Source of the DNA: an uncultured bacterium
GTDB lineage: Bacteria; Bacillota; Clostridia; Lachnospirales; Lachnospiraceae
DNA length: 48,624 nt
NCBI GenBank assembly: GCA_947383005.1
Contig: CANDBT010000035.1
Location: forward strand, 1-48,624
Reading direction: 5' to 3'
The notes beneath the pieces were generated by a model that was not told where the DNA came from, did not search any database, and was given only the letters and a program-made list of their open reading frames with translations. How positions within the stretch are numbered: position 1 is the first letter of the stretch; every line of letters starts with the position of its first letter. Below, in pieces: positions 12,262 to 48,552 of this stretch. The position numbers and the translations under genes are program-made.

Positions 12262-12369
12262 ATTTAATTGTAACCGTTCAGACGGGTAGCTTCTTGCCCG
12301 TCTACACCGGACAAGAAGTATCGGATGTTCATCCAGTGTGGAATTTGACAAGAATTGTTACATTTAATC
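12262..12369 (-). mobile_element. MITE-like element, family D, with target duplication
   Basis: The 92-bp element runs from GTAACCGTTCAGACGGG (starting 12270) to AATTGTTAC (ending 12361). It is flanked by ATTTAATT (12262-12269) and ATTTAATC (12362-12369), an 8-bp duplication with one mismatch. Inverted, its interior matches 48464-48544, including the ACGGGcaagaag hairpin. The gene-free stretch 11909-12375 therefore holds this element, the terminator, and the gntP promoter and operator; 12160-12260 shows nothing recognisable. Confidence 0.7.
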
Positions 12370-33746: not shown

Positions 33747-35915
33747 ATGAATGAAGAATTGATGCGGCGCGCGGAAGAACTGCTGGAAAAACTGACTTTG
33801 GAAGAAAAAATCGGCATGATTCATGGCGCGGAGCTGTTTGCAACCAAAGGGGTAGAGAGGCTGGGCATCCCGCCTTTGCGGTTTTCCGACGGCACGATGG
33901 GGGTAAGGCAGGAATTTGCGCCGGATTCATGGCATGCTGTTGGGAACACCGATGATTTTGTTACTTATTTGCCTTGCGGCAGCGCGGTTGCCGCTACCTG
34001 GAACCGCTCTTTGGCCAAGATGGCGGGCAGCGTATTGGGAGCGGAAGCCAGGGGCAGGGGTAAGGATGTGATCCTGGGGCCGGGGATAAATATCAAGCGA
34101 AGCCCTTTGTGCGGGAGAAATTTCGAATATTTCAGTGAAGATCCTTATTTGACGGGCCAGCTTGCCGCCGCCTTTGTCCAGGGGGTGCAGCAATGGGACG
34201 TGGCTGCCTGCGTAAAACATTTTGCCGCCAATAACCAGGAGACAAAGCGGCTCCAGGTAGAGGTGGAGATTGATGAGGAGGCTTTGCGTTCCCTCTATCT
34301 GCCAGCTTTTTATGAAACGGTGAAAGAAGGCGGGACTTTGTCGGTCATGGCGGCATACAACCGGCTTTATGGGGAGCATTGCTGTCAAAGCGATTTTTTG
34401 CTGAGAAAAATTCTCCGGCAGGAATGGGGTTTTGATGGTCTTGTGGTTTCCGACTGGGGAGGGGTTCACGATACAAAGCTGGCGGCTCAATCTTCGCTGG
34501 ATGTGGAAATGTCCGTGACCAATGATTTCGATCAATATAAGATGGCAGAACCGCTGAAAAAACTGGTGGAGGCCGGTGAAATTCCCGAATCGGCAATTGA
34601 CGAAAAAGTGTTTCACATTTTGATGACAATGATGCGCCTGCATATGCTGGATGGCAGCAGGAAATCCGGAAGCTACAATACCAGGGAACATCAAAACACG
34701 GCGCTGATGATGGCAAGGGAGTCTGTGGTGCTGCTGAAAAACAGCCAGGGGATTTTGCCGCTTAGGAAAGAAGCATGCCACCGGATATTGGTAATCGGGG
34801 AAAACGGGAATCGTATCCACAGCAATGGCGGCGGCAGCGCGGAAGTCAAGGCGCTATATGAGATTACTCCGCTTATGGGGATCAAAAAGCTGCTTGGCGG
34901 GAATTGCCGGGTGGATTATGTGCCGGGCTATTGCAGCGACGGTTTTTTGGGAGAAGATGCCGGTTTGGATGGCAGCGGAGACGGCCAGGCCGAGAATTGG
35001 CAGGAAACCAGCCTGGAAAACGGCGGGGGATCGATAAAAGTGCAAAGAGAGGATGAGGCAGCCCGCCGTCGTCGACAGGCGATGAGGCAGGAAGCGTCTG
35101 CGCTGGCGGCCTCGTCCCAGTATGACAAAGTGATTTTTGTGGGCGGGCTGAATCATGATTTTGACAGCGAGGGAAATGACCGGGCTGATATGAAGCTCCC
35201 TTATGATCAGGACGTCCTTATCGGCGAGCTTTTGTCTGTAAGGCCGGATATGGTGATGGTGCTTATGGGAGGCAGCCCGGTAGAAATGGGGCGATGGGTT
35301 GACCGGTGTTCCAGCTTGGTATGGTGTTGGTATGGGGGGATGGAAGGCGGGACAGCGCTGGCGGAGGTGTTGTTCGGCCAGGTAAATCCTTCAGGGAAGC
35401 TGCCGGAGAGTTTTTACCAAACGATTGATGATTGTTCGGCACATTCCGTAGGGGAATTTCCGGGCACGGACAAAGTACGTTATCGGGAAGGGGTATTTGT
35501 CGGGTACCGCTATCTGGATACTTTTGGCAAGGAGCCGCAGTTTTGCTTTGGCCATGGTTTGTCTTATACTGAATTTACTTATGGGAAAGCCAGCCTTGGG
35601 AAGGCCAGTCTGTCAGGAGAGGGAAATACCGTGCTTTGTGAGATTACCAATACAGGATGCCTGCCGGGGAAGGAAACCGTGCAGGTGTACTTAAGGCAAA
35701 AGGAGAGAAATCCGAAGCAGCCCTATCAGGAATTGGCGGGTTTTGAAAAGATCGAGCTTCAGCCTGGGGAAACCCGGCAGGTTATCGTTGCTTTTAAAGG
35801 AGAATTTAAAGGCAGAGAGATTGCTGTGGGCAGTTCGTCAAGAGATATCCGGGCAATTGTGTGTTCGCCCGATGGGGAAACAGATAGTAAGTTACTGTTC
35901 ACAGGTACCCTGTGA
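33747..35915 (+). CDS. GH3 beta-glucosidase with a transposon-altered C-terminus
   Basis: Cytoplasmic retaining beta-glucosidase for the cello-oligosaccharide core left after side-chain removal. The 722 residues hold the GH3 barrel with nucleophile D236 in GLVVSDWGG, the alpha/beta sandwich domain (PEMGRWV-like GGSPVEMGRWVD) and a C-terminal fibronectin-like domain (PQFCFGHGLSYTEF). GGAGG lies eleven bases before the start. The last eight residues, KLLFTGTL from K715, are read partly or fully from a mobile element inserted at 35891. Skipping the element and one target copy restores a frame ending DSNINVVKM. Both tails lie outside the catalytic domains, so activity is probably kept. Some GH3 enzymes are beta-xylosidases; context favours glucosidase. 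Confidence 0.92.
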   Translation: MNEELMRRAEELLEKLTLEEKIGMIHGAELFATKGVERLGIPPLRFSDGTMGVRQEFAPDSWHAVGNTDDFVTYLPCGSAVAATWNRSLAKMAGSVLGAEARGRGKDVILGPGINIKRSPLCGRNFEYFSEDPYLTGQLAAAFVQGVQQWDVAACVKHFAANNQETKRLQVEVEIDEEALRSLYLPAFYETVKEGGTLSVMAAYNRLYGEHCCQSDFLLRKILRQEWGFDGLVVSDWGGVHDTKLAAQSSLDVEMSVTNDFDQYKMAEPLKKLVEAGEIPESAIDEKVFHILMTMMRLHMLDGSRKSGSYNTREHQNTALMMARESVVLLKNSQGILPLRKEACHRILVIGENGNRIHSNGGGSAEVKALYEITPLMGIKKLLGGNCRVDYVPGYCSDGFLGEDAGLDGSGDGQAENWQETSLENGGGSIKVQREDEAARRRRQAMRQEASALAASSQYDKVIFVGGLNHDFDSEGNDRADMKLPYDQDVLIGELLSVRPDMVMVLMGGSPVEMGRWVDRCSSLVWCWYGGMEGGTALAEVLFGQVNPSGKLPESFYQTIDDCSAHSVGEFPGTDKVRYREGVFVGYRYLDTFGKEPQFCFGHGLSYTEFTYGKASLGKASLSGEGNTVLCEITNTGCLPGKETVQVYLRQKERNPKQPYQELAGFEKIELQPGETRQVIVAFKGEFKGREIAVGSSSRDIRAIVCSPDGETDSKLLFTGTL

Positions 35916-36091
35916 ACGTAACCGCATATGCCCATGTTAAATTGCCTTCGGGTTCTAAGCGCCAGTGGCGCTTGTTTAGAACCGACCGGAACGGAGTGTA
36001 GACGGGGGCATATGCTTTGCTCCCATAATGATATCTGCCCATGGCTAATCAGCGGAGTGATTAGCCATGGTGTGAACAGTAACGATAGTAA
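35883..36091. mobile_element. MITE, family C, with perfect inverted ends and 8-bp target duplication
   Basis: A 193-bp element (35891-36083) begins GTTACTGTTCACA and ends TGTGAACAGTAAC, a perfect 13-bp inverted pair. It is flanked on both sides by GATAGTAA (35883-35890 and 36084-36091). Inside are a left-end hairpin containing the GH3 stop codon, the CATATGCCC...GGGCATATG pair, a hairpin core at 35952-35982 shared with the element at 6603-6848, and a 13-bp stem at 36039-36070 (CCATGGCTAATCA / TGATTAGCCATGG). There is no coding capacity, so movement would need a transposase elsewhere. Confidence 0.9.
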
Positions 36092-36123
36092 CATAAATGT
36101 TGTGAAAATGTAGACAATTTACA

Positions 36124-36152
36124 TTGTGTGCCCGTCTGAAAAGTGCTATAAT
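36124..36152 (+). promoter_or_regulatory. Transketolase promoter
   Basis: -35 TTGTGT (36124-36129), a 17-base spacer, and TATAAT (36147-36152) preceded by TGC, giving an extended -10. It lies between the mobile element and the transketolase gene. Confidence 0.75.
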
Positions 36153-36194: not shown

Positions 36195-38180
36195 ATGAAT
36201 AAACAATTGGAACAAAAATCGGTAAATGCCATTCGGATTTTGGCCGCGGATACGGTGCAGAAGGCCAATTCCGGCCACCCGGGCCTTCCGCTGGGGGCGG
36301 CGGCCATAGCTTATGAGCTATGGGCGCATCAGATGAACCACAATCCTGCCAATCCTGACTGGGAGAACAGAGATCGTTTTATTTTATCCGGCGGCCATGG
36401 TTCCGCGCTTTTGTATTCGCTGCTGCATTTATTTGATTATGGCCTGACTGTTGAGGATTTAAAGAACTTCCGCCAGGACGGTTCCCTGACGCCGGGGCAT
36501 CCGGAGTATGGTCATACCGTAGGTGTGGAAGCGACTACGGGACCTTTGGGGGCAGGCATGGCTATGGCTGTGGGCATGGCAATGGCGGAAGCCCACTTGT
36601 CGGCTTTGTTTAATGAGCCGGATTACCCGGTTGTGGATCATTATACTTATGTGCTGGGCGGCGATGGCTGCATGATGGAGGGGATATCCTCGGAAGCTTT
36701 CTCTCTGGCAGGAACGCTCGGACTGCACAAGCTGATTGTATTATATGATTCGAATAATATTTCGATAGAGGGAAGTACGGATATCGCTTTTACTGAGGAT
36801 GTAAGGGGGCGGATGGAAGCTTTCGGTTTTCAGACGCTTTTAGTGGAAGACGGCAATGATATCGAGGCTATCGGCCGCGCTGTTGAGGCAGCTAAAGCAG
36901 ATACCGAGCGTCCGTCGTTTATTGTGGTAAAGACAAAGATCGGTTTTGGCTGTCCGGCCAAGGAAGGGACGGCAAGTGCCCACGGGGAGCCGCTTGGCGC
37001 GGATAATATAGCGGCGATGAGGAAAAACCTGGGCTGGGAAGAGGATGAAGCTTTTGTCGTTCCGTCTGAGGTTTATGAGAATTGCCAGGGGGCAAAGATC
37101 CATGGAGCGGAAACGGAGAAAAAGTGGAATCAGATGTTTGCCTCCTACTGCAACAATTACCCGGAGAAAAAGGCATTGTGGGATCAGATCCATGATAAGC
37201 AAATCGGGAAAAAACTGCTGGATGACCCGGATTTCTGGGCATGCGAGGATAAGCCCCAGGCTACCCGGAGTTTATCAGGGATAATGATTAACCGGATTAA
37301 GGATAAAGTTCCGGCTTTGATCGGCGGCGCAGCGGATTTGGCGCCTTCTACGAAGACTTATATGTCCGGAGAAGGGGATTTCTCCCGGAAAGATTACCGT
37401 GGACGCAACCTGCATTTTGGCGTGCGTGAGCTTGCTATGACCGGTATCGCCAACGGATTGGCTCTTCATGGCCTGCGGCCTTTTGTATCTACCTTTTTTG
37501 TGTTCAGTGATTATATGAAGCCCATGCTCAGGCTGGCGTCGCTGATGAAACTGCCGCTCACCTGTGTGCTGACTCATGATAGTATCGGAGTGGGAGAGGA
37601 CGGGCCGACCCATGAGCCGATCGAACAGCTTGCCATGCTCCGTGCTATGCCGGGATTTGCCGTATTTCGTCCGGCAGACGCAAGAGAGACTGCGGCTGCC
37701 TGGTATTTTGCCGTGTCATCTACGGATATGCCGGTGGCTTTGGTATTGAGCCGTCAAAATTTACCGCTGTTGAAAAATTCCGGAAAAGAGGCATTGAAAG
37801 GGGCGTATGTGCTGGAAGACAGCGGGAAGGAAGTTCCTGATGCCATACTGATTGCCAGCGGTTCTGAAGTTAGCGTGGCCGTGGAGGCAAGACAGCTTTT
37901 GCTGGCTGAAGGGATGGATGTACGGGTGGTCAGCATGCCTTCCATGGATGTATTTGAGCAGCAGCCAGAGGAATATAAGCAGTCTGTGCTTCCGCCAAAT
38001 GTGCGTCGGCGGGTGGCTGTAGAGGCTTTAAGCGGTTTTGGCTGGGAGAGATATGTGGGCCTGGATGGTGCGGTAGTAGCAATGAAGGGCTTCGGGGCTT
38101 CGGCGCCGGCAGGAAAGCTGTTTAAGAAATTCGGCTTTACTGCGGAGCATGTGGCTGAGGTGGCAAAAGGATTGAAATAA
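36195..38180 (+). CDS. tkt: Transketolase
   Basis: Thiamine-diphosphate enzyme of the non-oxidative pentose phosphate pathway, moving two-carbon units between ketose and aldose phosphates. The full-length 661 residues include the HPGLPLGAA start region, the ThDP motif GDG (156-158) with NNISI following, and the transketolase signature in GEDGPTHEPIEQLAMLRA. CAGGAGGAG precedes the ATG. It heads a unit with an isomerase-like gene (19-base gap) and a transaldolase gene. Placement after the xylose-releasing enzymes suggests pentose processing, though a housekeeping role is also possible. Confidence 0.97.
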   Translation: MNKQLEQKSVNAIRILAADTVQKANSGHPGLPLGAAAIAYELWAHQMNHNPANPDWENRDRFILSGGHGSALLYSLLHLFDYGLTVEDLKNFRQDGSLTPGHPEYGHTVGVEATTGPLGAGMAMAVGMAMAEAHLSALFNEPDYPVVDHYTYVLGGDGCMMEGISSEAFSLAGTLGLHKLIVLYDSNNISIEGSTDIAFTEDVRGRMEAFGFQTLLVEDGNDIEAIGRAVEAAKADTERPSFIVVKTKIGFGCPAKEGTASAHGEPLGADNIAAMRKNLGWEEDEAFVVPSEVYENCQGAKIHGAETEKKWNQMFASYCNNYPEKKALWDQIHDKQIGKKLLDDPDFWACEDKPQATRSLSGIMINRIKDKVPALIGGAADLAPSTKTYMSGEGDFSRKDYRGRNLHFGVRELAMTGIANGLALHGLRPFVSTFFVFSDYMKPMLRLASLMKLPLTCVLTHDSIGVGEDGPTHEPIEQLAMLRAMPGFAVFRPADARETAAAWYFAVSSTDMPVALVLSRQNLPLLKNSGKEALKGAYVLEDSGKEVPDAILIASGSEVSVAVEARQLLLAEGMDVRVVSMPSMDVFEQQPEEYKQSVLPPNVRRRVAVEALSGFGWERYVGLDGAVVAMKGFGASAPAGKLFKKFGFTAEHVAEVAKGLK

Positions 38181-39753: not shown

Positions 39754-39802
39754 AAGGGCGCAGACGGGCAAGAAGATACCCGTCTGAACTGTAACAGTTC
39801 AG
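39754..39802 (+). repeat. Family D fragment with hairpins before the transaldolase gene
   Basis: AGACGGG-caagaagata-CCCGTCT forms a hairpin identical in plan to that of 48510-48535, and is followed by CTGAACTGT-a-ACAGTTCAG, a perfect palindrome at 39784-39802. It lies in the 135-base gap before transaldolase. Origin from the dispersed family D is likely; an effect on translation is possible, since the ribosome site follows within a few bases. Confidence 0.65.
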
Positions 39803-39822
39803 AAAGCGAGGGAATGACAATT

Positions 39823-47013: not shown

Positions 47014-47099
47014 CGTTCCTTCCTCCTCTTATAATGTAACGCATCCTCACGTCCGTTCGGCGGCAGATTGTTGGAAAGCATTCTAAAAATGCTTCGCAT
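47010..47099 (-). CDS. Possible small ORF between the aconitase-family subunits
   Basis: A 29-codon frame begins at ATG 47099, seven bases after GGAGG, and ends in a TGA that overlaps the ATG of the LeuD-like gene (ATGA). The predicted peptide is basic (ends KRRKER) with no recognised domain. Its first codons lie in a hairpin (AAATGC-gaa-GCATTT). The spacing and overlap fit translational coupling, but the frame is short and conservation is unknown, so it may be a leader or chance. Confidence 0.3.
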   Translation of the reverse strand: MRSIFRMLSNNLPPNGREDALHYKRRKER

Positions 47100-47111
47100 T
47101 TGCCTTCCTCC

Positions 47112-48368
47112 TCACACCACCTCCCGGGGATCTGTGATGCTTCCCCTCAGCGCGGTGGCTGCCGCTGTCGCCGGGCTGGATAAATAAATACTGGCCGTGG
47201 GATTGCCCATCCTGCCTTTAAAATTCCGGTTCTGGGTAGCCACCACTACCTCATTGTCTCCAGGTATTCCCTGATGCACCCCCATGCAAGGGCCACAATT
47301 AGGCGCTTCAATGACTGCCCCTGCCTCTGCCAGCGCAAGCAAGGTACCGTCCTTCATACATTCCTTATATACGGAGACCGAATTGGGAATCACTAAAAGC
47401 CGCAGTCCTTTTGCCACCTTTTTCCCCTTGAGGATCTCTGCTGCCACATGCAGATCCTCCGTACGCCCGTTGGTACAACTGCCGATAAATACCATATTGA
47501 CCTTCTGATTCCGGCAATTTCTGGCCAATTCCACATTTTCCACATAATGAGGACAGGATACCAGCGGTTCCAGCACCGTGGCGTCGATATCAATCACCCT
47601 TTCATAGCGGGCATTTTCATCCCCCCGGATTTCCCGGTAATCTGCTTCTCTTCCGAATTTCGCCATGAATTCTCTGGTGTGCCCGTCCGTCTCCATAATC
47701 GCTGTCTTTGCTCCTACATCCACCCCCATGCTGGTGATGGTCAGACGTCCGGCCATGGACAAAGATGCTATGGTATCTCCCCGGAATTCCAGGGATTTGT
47801 AAATGGCCTGGTCGGATTTAATCATGTCGGCCAGCTTCAGCATAATATCCTTGGCATAAACCCCCCGGGGCAGCGTTCCTGTCACATTGATGCGAAAAGT
47901 CTCCGGCACCTTAATCCAGGTTTTTCCGTACCTGGCTACTGCTACCATATCTGTGGAACCACAGCCGGTGGCAAAGCACCCAAATGCGCCGTGAATAGTC
48001 GTGTGGGAATCCCCCACAATGCACACCGAACCACACTTTAAATATTCTTCGTACACATGGGCATGGACATGTCCGGTGCCGCCCTCCTCCCAATGGCAGT
48101 GATGGCTGCAGGCGTAATTCCTTGTCAGTGCATGTTCATTGGCCACTTCCCTGGTGGGAACCGGGCCAAACTCATTGGCAAATAAGATTCGATCCGGATC
48201 GAACACCGGATCCTCCTGATATCCCCGCTCCTTCATCAGCCTCACAAGAAGAGGCCCTGACCCATCATGAAGCGCGGCAAAATCCACATCTACCACAACC
48301 GTCTCCCCTGCGTGAACCGGCCTTCCCATCTTTTCACTCAATATCTTTTCTACCAGTGTCTGTTCCAT
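47112..48368 (-). CDS. Aconitase-family large subunit (LeuC-like), altered active site
   Basis: 418-residue iron-sulfur subunit of a hydro-lyase related to the archaeal-type LeuC, homoaconitase and dimethylmalate dehydratase proteins. Cluster cysteines are visible in GSCTNGR and NCGPCMG, and GDSHTTIHGAFG and GSTDM are conserved. The Asp-His pair normally found near residue 65 is replaced by N65-E66 (ILFANEFGPVP), while the His of the next active-site segment is kept as H100 (GTGHVH). A Cys/His-rich run CSHHCH precedes it. The start is ATG 48368 with AGAGAGG upstream; an in-frame ATG at 48425 lies in repeat DNA. No leuA or leuB is nearby. Substrate is probably a tricarboxylate. Confidence 0.85.
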   Translation of the reverse strand: MEQTLVEKILSEKMGRPVHAGETVVVDVDFAALHDGSGPLLVRLMKERGYQEDPVFDPDRILFANEFGPVPTREVANEHALTRNYACSHHCHWEEGGTGHVHAHVYEEYLKCGSVCIVGDSHTTIHGAFGCFATGCGSTDMVAVARYGKTWIKVPETFRINVTGTLPRGVYAKDIMLKLADMIKSDQAIYKSLEFRGDTIASLSMAGRLTITSMGVDVGAKTAIMETDGHTREFMAKFGREADYREIRGDENARYERVIDIDATVLEPLVSCPHYVENVELARNCRNQKVNMVFIGSCTNGRTEDLHVAAEILKGKKVAKGLRLLVIPNSVSVYKECMKDGTLLALAEAGAVIEAPNCGPCMGVHQGIPGDNEVVVATQNRNFKGRMGNPTASIYLSSPATAAATALRGSITDPREVV

Positions 48369-48386: not shown

Positions 48387-48552
48387 ATTTTTTTGTAACG
48401 GTTCAGACGGCGGGGAATTTGGCATAAATTTGGGGCGTCAAGCTTGCTTGTAAGCCCCAATTTATGCCAAATTCCACATCGGATGGATATCCCAGCTTTT
48501 GTCCGGCGTAGACGGGCAAGAAGATGTCCCGTCTGAACGGTTACACTTTTTT
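48387..48552 (+). mobile_element. MITE-like element, family D, at the end of the window
   Basis: GTAACGGTTCAGACGG (48395-48410) and the inverted CCGTCTGAACGGTTAC (48529-48544) are terminal repeats matching at 15 of 16 bases. The 150-bp element is flanked by ATTTTTTT and ACTTTTTT, an 8-bp duplication with one mismatch. A 22-bp stem with one bulge fills 48414-48475 (arms starting GGAATTTGGCATAAA), and the ACGGGcaagaag hairpin is near the right end. It lies upstream of the aconitase-family operon, whose promoter may be in or beyond it. Confidence 0.7.

Follow-up and report, generated by a model that had tools for sequence, protein, structure and literature searches.

The gene for a GH3 glycoside hydrolase, a beta-glucosidase (33747-35915, plus strand; Pfam PF00933, PF01915, PF14310) in the window, the whole 48,624-nucleotide stretch of Lachnospiraceae DNA analyzed here, ends inside a 193-bp element with inverted ends, raising the questions of what this element is, what it did to the gene and which enzyme moved it. 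With a probability of roughly 0.93, we consider it a MITE moved in trans, one copy of which inserted in GATAGTAA and thereby gave GH3 its new tail.

Insertion at the 3' end of the GH3 gene

The inserted, non-autonomous copy spans 35891-36083. Its inverted ends are exact, as the earlier note had claimed: the left terminal repeat GTTACTGTTCACA (35891-35903, plus strand) pairs at 13/13 positions with the right one, TGTGAACAGTAAC (36071-36083, minus strand). The same is true of the 8-bp target duplication, with GATAGTAA present 8/8 on the left (35883-35890) and on the right (36084-36091). No transposase gene lies inside the 193 bp, across which a 111-aa mechanical minus-strand frame runs. A length below ~400 bp without a transposase gene, inverted ends, a target duplication and dispersed near-identical copies, all present here, are among the criteria for a MITE, and the window element is not an IS4 element. 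A text search of a collection of papers for the letters GTTACTGTTCACA found none. That a mobile element inserted here is further borne out by dispersed copies with 8-bp duplications and by an element-free GH3-transketolase junction in the congener G023.

The GH3 frame crosses into the element at codon 715 and terminates, as previously noted, at a stop codon within it (TGA, 35913-35915), so that the last eight codons (KLLFTGTL) and the stop derive from the insertion and the present protein has 722 aa, ending ...GETDSKLLFTGTL. The pre-insertion frame could indeed be recovered: once the element and one of the two duplicates are taken out, the gene encodes 721 aa ending ...GETDSNINVVKM and stops at TAG (36111-36113); the remnant of the former tail, the rest of NINVVKM, and this former stop persist at 36092-36113 (plus strand). 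An element copy entered GATAGTAA seven codons upstream of the old stop, and its left end happens to be open in the GH3 frame for 22 bases before TGA, exchanging the seven residues NINVVKM for the eight residues KLLFTGTL.

Among 41 genomes, the GH3 3' part matched only this genome and, at 72-76% identity, G022 and G023. In G023, transketolase comes directly after GH3, 95 bp away and with the element absent, and the GH3 tail beyond the shared SSSRDIR is TIVNDHGILREEMKK, while GH3 of G022 ends KVIG next to a different gene, a kinase by eye. The empty-site comparison proposed earlier therefore yielded a junction without the element, but not the allele with a single GATAGTAA and a NINVVKM tail, as the 41 genomes included no second strain; at 72-76% identity, a single target 8-mer is not expected in these relatives. 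The C-terminus was described as rewritten, which is true but minor: seven residues became eight, and past SSSRDIR the tails of the three genomes compared are wholly different. Given that the Fn3-like Pfam match on GH3 ends at residue 681 of 722 and spans only 39 of 71 model positions, Pfam alone cannot place the tail outside that domain, and the variability of the tail is a statement about three sequences.

The earlier note also held that the gene end had shifted relative to the promoter of the transketolase gene (36195-38180, plus strand; Pfam PF00456, PF02779, PF22613). The distance between the two genes did grow from 81 to 279 bp through the insertion, but a candidate promoter recognized by eye (TTGTGT-17-TATAAT with an extended -10; 36124-36152, plus strand) lies downstream of the element and is untouched, which makes the point a weak one; a promoter scan did not pick up this candidate and found no promoter. 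As the GH3 tail is unconserved and transketolase probably has its promoter beyond the element, the effect of the new tail, judged from sequence, is probably slight and harmless, and the insertion would have been tolerated.

Copies in the genome and across the family

BLAST found 43 matches to the 193-bp element at E<=0.001 in the own genome (4.99 Mb, 136 contigs); a second search that scored fewer candidates listed 35. Counting the window copy, 22 matches cover at least 169 bases at 96-100% identity and three are full-length at 100%, so that the search for further 193-bp copies suggested earlier yields two identical instances, indicating recent spread. Among 30 copies fetched as loci, the duplication is 8/8 in 17 and 7/8 in eight, whereas 870 pairs of swapped flanks reached at most 6/8. 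The remaining five, without a clear duplication (L019, L021, L022, L026 and L030), are mostly truncated or clipped matches; the boundaries of L012, L016 and L030 were placed by hand rather than from the BLAST match. Genome-wide, 57+51 sites match the 13-mer end, compared to 0+0 for the reversed pattern. Given these counts and the 25 of 30 duplications of at least 7/8, chance is excluded as the source of the insertion pattern. Dispersed copies with duplications occur in both orientations, and the same ends are found on elements of 138, 143/144 and 239 bp, which form further size classes.

Within the genus, 13 of 24 genomes, the own included, contain matches, although in four of them (G015, G019, G006 and G008) the listed matches cover only the tip sequence of a hairpin described below. 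The left-end pattern was found in 35 stretches of 15 named assemblies, labelled Hungatella, Clostridium, Lachnospiraceae, Clostridiaceae or uncultured bacterium. Going by the MGBC names, the habitat is presumably the mouse gut.

Insertions near gene ends recur. Based on mechanical ORFs in loci of ~3 kb, six of the 25 duplication-bearing copies lie at, or at most 24 nt from, the 3' end of an ORF of at least 130 aa, and no ORF of at least 200 aa is struck more than 24 nt from either end. Another copy gave a new tail to a 508-aa ORF that looks helicase-like by eye, and a doubtful 132-aa ORF was altered likewise, while three copies (L003, L010 and L017) lie at or adjoin a stop codon with the protein tail kept.

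Elements of another family, whose ends GTAAC[CG]GTTCAGACGG are related, lie in the window at 48395-48544 and also at 12270, 31127 and 39783-39803; the first of these is a 150-bp element, after which part of its interior is repeated up to the window end (48624). Apart from these elements, a GA-cis RNA (RF02987, 60 bits) lies at 47031-47115 on the minus strand, the sole Rfam match in the whole window at curated scores. Two loci on other contigs of this genome (L075 and L076, C135 and C136) are open in six frames and probably represent masked N runs.

IS4-subgroup elements and candidates for the moving transposase

A transposase recognizing GTTACTGTTCACA ends would move the MITE in trans, making target cuts staggered by 8 bp. 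The search for a transposase with GTTAC ends, suggested in the earlier note, led to IS4-subgroup elements and to no other candidate, and those found look nested rather than parental. Five elements larger than 1 kb carry arms on both sides, with ends GTTACTGTTCAC[AG]-NN-CAATGTCA. The G012 element (G012:C12:567-2387, 1821 bp, GTTACTGTTCAC ends) has an IS4-family transposase in an uninterrupted frame. The others are C34:93-1829 of the own genome (outer duplication 7/8), which is the one large element with such ends seen in this genome and has its transposase split over two frames, one in G340 (1775 bp), one at G405:C4:44566-46072 (outer repeat CCGAATAGTAA, frame split) and one at G138:C12 (1211 bp, 7/8). 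Two of the five (L104 and L170) have no outer duplication. The L104 transposase scores 145.9 bits against NF033592 (cut-off 115), and by eye the motif Y(2)R(3)E(6)K reads YHLRWNQETAYRDLK in L104 and YHLRWGQETSFRDLK in C34. An intact autonomous element with GTTACTGTTCACA ends was not seen in the own genome among the 100 of 108 end sites listed.

These CAATG elements resemble the IS4 subgroup, as characterized in PMC2266710, in ends starting CAATGTCA that fit -AATR--------WTW, in the YREK motif and in target preference; the L104 ends CAATGTCATTAACTTAA fit this consensus by eye against Table 1 of that paper. On the other hand, their duplications are mostly 9 bp and thus differ from the 10-13-bp direct repeats given for the subgroup in that table, and most of the bodies measured are 1.5-1.8 kb compared to 1400-1650 bp (PMC2266710).

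Armless or one-armed relatives that end at CAATGTCA duplicate their target right there, over 9-10 bp in L173 (GTTCACGGA, by eye), L174 (GTTCACATA, by eye), L177 (GGTAGTGTCC, 10 bp, by eye, with the GTTAC motif absent), L280 (GTTCACGGG) and L286 (GTTCACTGC); L180 has an 8-bp duplication (CGTATGAA, by eye) and L274 one of 8/9. The far end was unmatched by the motif in 11 of the 17 loci examined for such relatives, and L279 has both CAATG ends and no GTTCAN duplication. IS4-subgroup elements and their small derivatives in L173, L174, L180, L262, L274, L280 and L286 (genomes G175, G405, G185, G210 and G008) lie in GTTAC..GTTCA motifs, always 15 bases from GTTAC, and mostly duplicate GTTCACNNN. The pattern GTTAYNGTTCA-4-CAATGTCA occurs 23 times, not every occurrence being established as an IS end, in 14 of 397 family genomes, compared to none for the reversed control. 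L262 is a nested case: a 274-bp CAATG element lies within a GTTAC unit of 416 bp. Both have a duplication of their own, the outer one being TTCTTTCT.

We interpret this pattern as targeting of GTTAC ends by IS4-subgroup elements, with the both-armed elements perhaps trapped in MITEs. Among other insertion sequences, IS231A targets the ends of Tn4430. Distant IS4 relatives on Enterococcus plasmids (L167 and L168) have long inverted arms outside CAATGTCA whose sequence is different.

We consider it fairly probable that all GTTAC-ended elements are moved by a DDE transposase that cuts with an 8-bp stagger, and that IS4-subgroup elements simply prefer the MITE ends as insertion targets and so come to lie within them. 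Consistent with this, the GTTCACNNN duplications adjoin the CAATG ends at the fixed offset, the nested pair of L262 carries separate duplications, and duplication lengths differ (8 vs mostly 9 bp); some IS4-subgroup elements, according to PMC2266710, show striking insertion specificity, in target arms. Against it stand L279 and the outcome of the family searches: PF03050, examined in this genome, and PF01609, PF00872 and PF01610, each examined in six genomes, yielded no such enzyme.

The IS66 family was considered as a parent on account of the GTTAC/GTAAC ends and the 8-bp duplication. Both own-genome copies of its transposase (PF03050) lie in loci with no GTTAC/GTAAC ends at up to two mismatches. 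The IS256 (PF00872) and ISL3 (PF01610) transposases checked lack a flanking pair of GTTAC ends in G000, G015, G022, G008, G012 and G405, and for PF01609, searched in G000, G015, G022, G008, G012 and G016, ends adjoin the transposase only in the IS4-subgroup loci of G012, the own C34 and, on one side, G008. No end pair is present in the 20 smallest contigs of this genome, considered as possible collapsed IS copies. Twenty own-genome regions around mostly unpaired ends, drawn from the 100 of 108 sites listed, and 20 of 28 end sites inspected in G015 contain short elements only. Two wider end pairs were also rejected: the 2.6-kb pair C12:28318-30933 encloses ordinary genes, and the pair at window 12270/13983 is due to chance, with other genes in between.

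That an armed IS4-subgroup insertion sequence is itself the parent, its transposase moving the MITE, appears rather doubtful. Such a parent would fit the five both-armed elements, some with outer duplications, the outer duplications of at least 7/8 in four of five G022 derivatives (338-340 and 247 bp; 7/8 or 8/8), and the failure of the PF00872 and PF01610 transposases to show flanking ends. However, L104 and L170 have no outer duplication, and G015 and G022 contain GTTAC elements yet yielded no match to the IS4 transposase. The armless and one-armed relatives, with 9-10-bp duplications of their own right at the CAATG ends, and the nested L262 also count against it.

Mini forms, hairpins and known systems

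In 310 sequences (1.13 Mb), a non-random sample gathered by the family searches, 18 inverted end pairs are spaced 24-40 bp apart, and 10 of these mini pairs have duplications of at least 7/8, compared to a shuffled mean of 0.56 and maximum of 4. The palindromic forms of 28-33 bp bear their own 8-bp duplications. REP and REPIN sequences are likewise 20-40-bp palindromes present in high number; REPs are not known to generate 8-bp duplications, in contrast to the forms described here. A deletion between two TGTGAAC motifs of the window element (35911, 36071) gives exactly the 33-bp form of L042, so that, on the sequence, deletion after insertion explains at least this form, and genuine movement of such small units is possible. 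We regard as quite unlikely a two-layer nested system with the 28-33-bp hairpins as its basic transposing unit, one consisting of little beyond two 13-bp ends and moved with 8-bp duplications in several Lachnospiraceae sequence families; one end of the larger elements would then be a near-copy of this unit, which IS4-subgroup elements would be specialized to enter. In another species, 31-base forms starting GTTACTGTTCACGC (L203 and L215; G015:C11 and C42) have, by eye, 8-bp flanking repeats GATTTTCT and GGCAAAAC and look like the left portion of the 133-bp elements present in this species.

The window MITE contains three hairpins: a left subterminal one, GTTACTGTTCACAGGTACCCTGTGAACGTAAC (35891-35922, plus strand), which is close to the 33-bp mini form; a second with arms GCATATGCCC and GGGCATATGC (35924-36015) and a variable tip, whose extra sequence in the 193-bp class (35949-36002) is missing from the 143/144-bp class; and a third, CCATGGCTAATCA...TGATTAGCCATGG (36039-36070). 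Both strands fold far beyond shuffled sequences (z -7.3 and -6.6). From 59 distinct copies collected, 36 belong to the short class, of which 35 were aligned after the truncated L031 was left out. Across these, 96.5% of the cells in the ends and three stems pair, and 45 cells carry changes on both sides, where shuffles gave 15.6 +/- 4.9 and slid controls no more than 2. The third hairpin holds five of the six pairs affected in this way, out of its 13 pairs in the short class, and further pair types (17 vs 17.8 in shuffles) were not in excess. As related copies were counted repeatedly in these covariation counts, the data favor upkeep of the hairpins and no particular function. Kept through paired changes, the three hairpins may serve transposition or shape the transcript end.

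A permissive Rfam search of five loci gave chance-level matches. The 193-class tip (35949-36002) is similar to a multicopy hairpin repeat around AGCGCCAGTGGCGCT that occurs separately, in other surroundings, in the congeners G015 and G019 (e.g. L081, L093, L101 and L103); in L101, L103 and L081, no Rfam family came near its curated score.

A domesticated structured RNA or GH3 terminator, kept by selection rather than being a plain transposon copy, would fit the folding of both strands and the stem covariation in related copies, but is highly improbable in view of the dozens of copies scattered over the genome in both orientations with their duplications, the corresponding G023 junction without the element, no Rfam match in the element at curated scores and no terminator-like site in a plus-strand scan of it.

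MITE-altered C-termini are already known from Coxiella, where QMITE1 and QMITE2 are described, in PMC5896051, as short, structured and multicopy, with a 3'-end bias in functional genes and changed C-termini. The MITE family described here shares all of these traits, while its ends and host differ, and the 8-bp duplication and the visiting IS4-subgroup elements at a fixed position in the MITE ends set it apart from QMITEs as presented there. With RUP, Correia/NEMIS and other small repeats, as covered in PMC2229807, it has in common non-autonomy, terminal inverted repeats, RNA stem-loops and element sequence fused into ORFs; RUP targets TA and is tied to an IS630-type enzyme according to the same text, in contrast to the 8-bp duplication of the window MITE.

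The event at the GH3 gene is in itself an ordinary MITE insertion, and illustrates how a gene may acquire a new C-terminus. Together, the many recent copies with intact duplications, the mini forms and the IS4-subgroup elements in the ends form a natural test system, which bears on the minimum size of a transposon and on how insertion sequences locate the ends of other elements.
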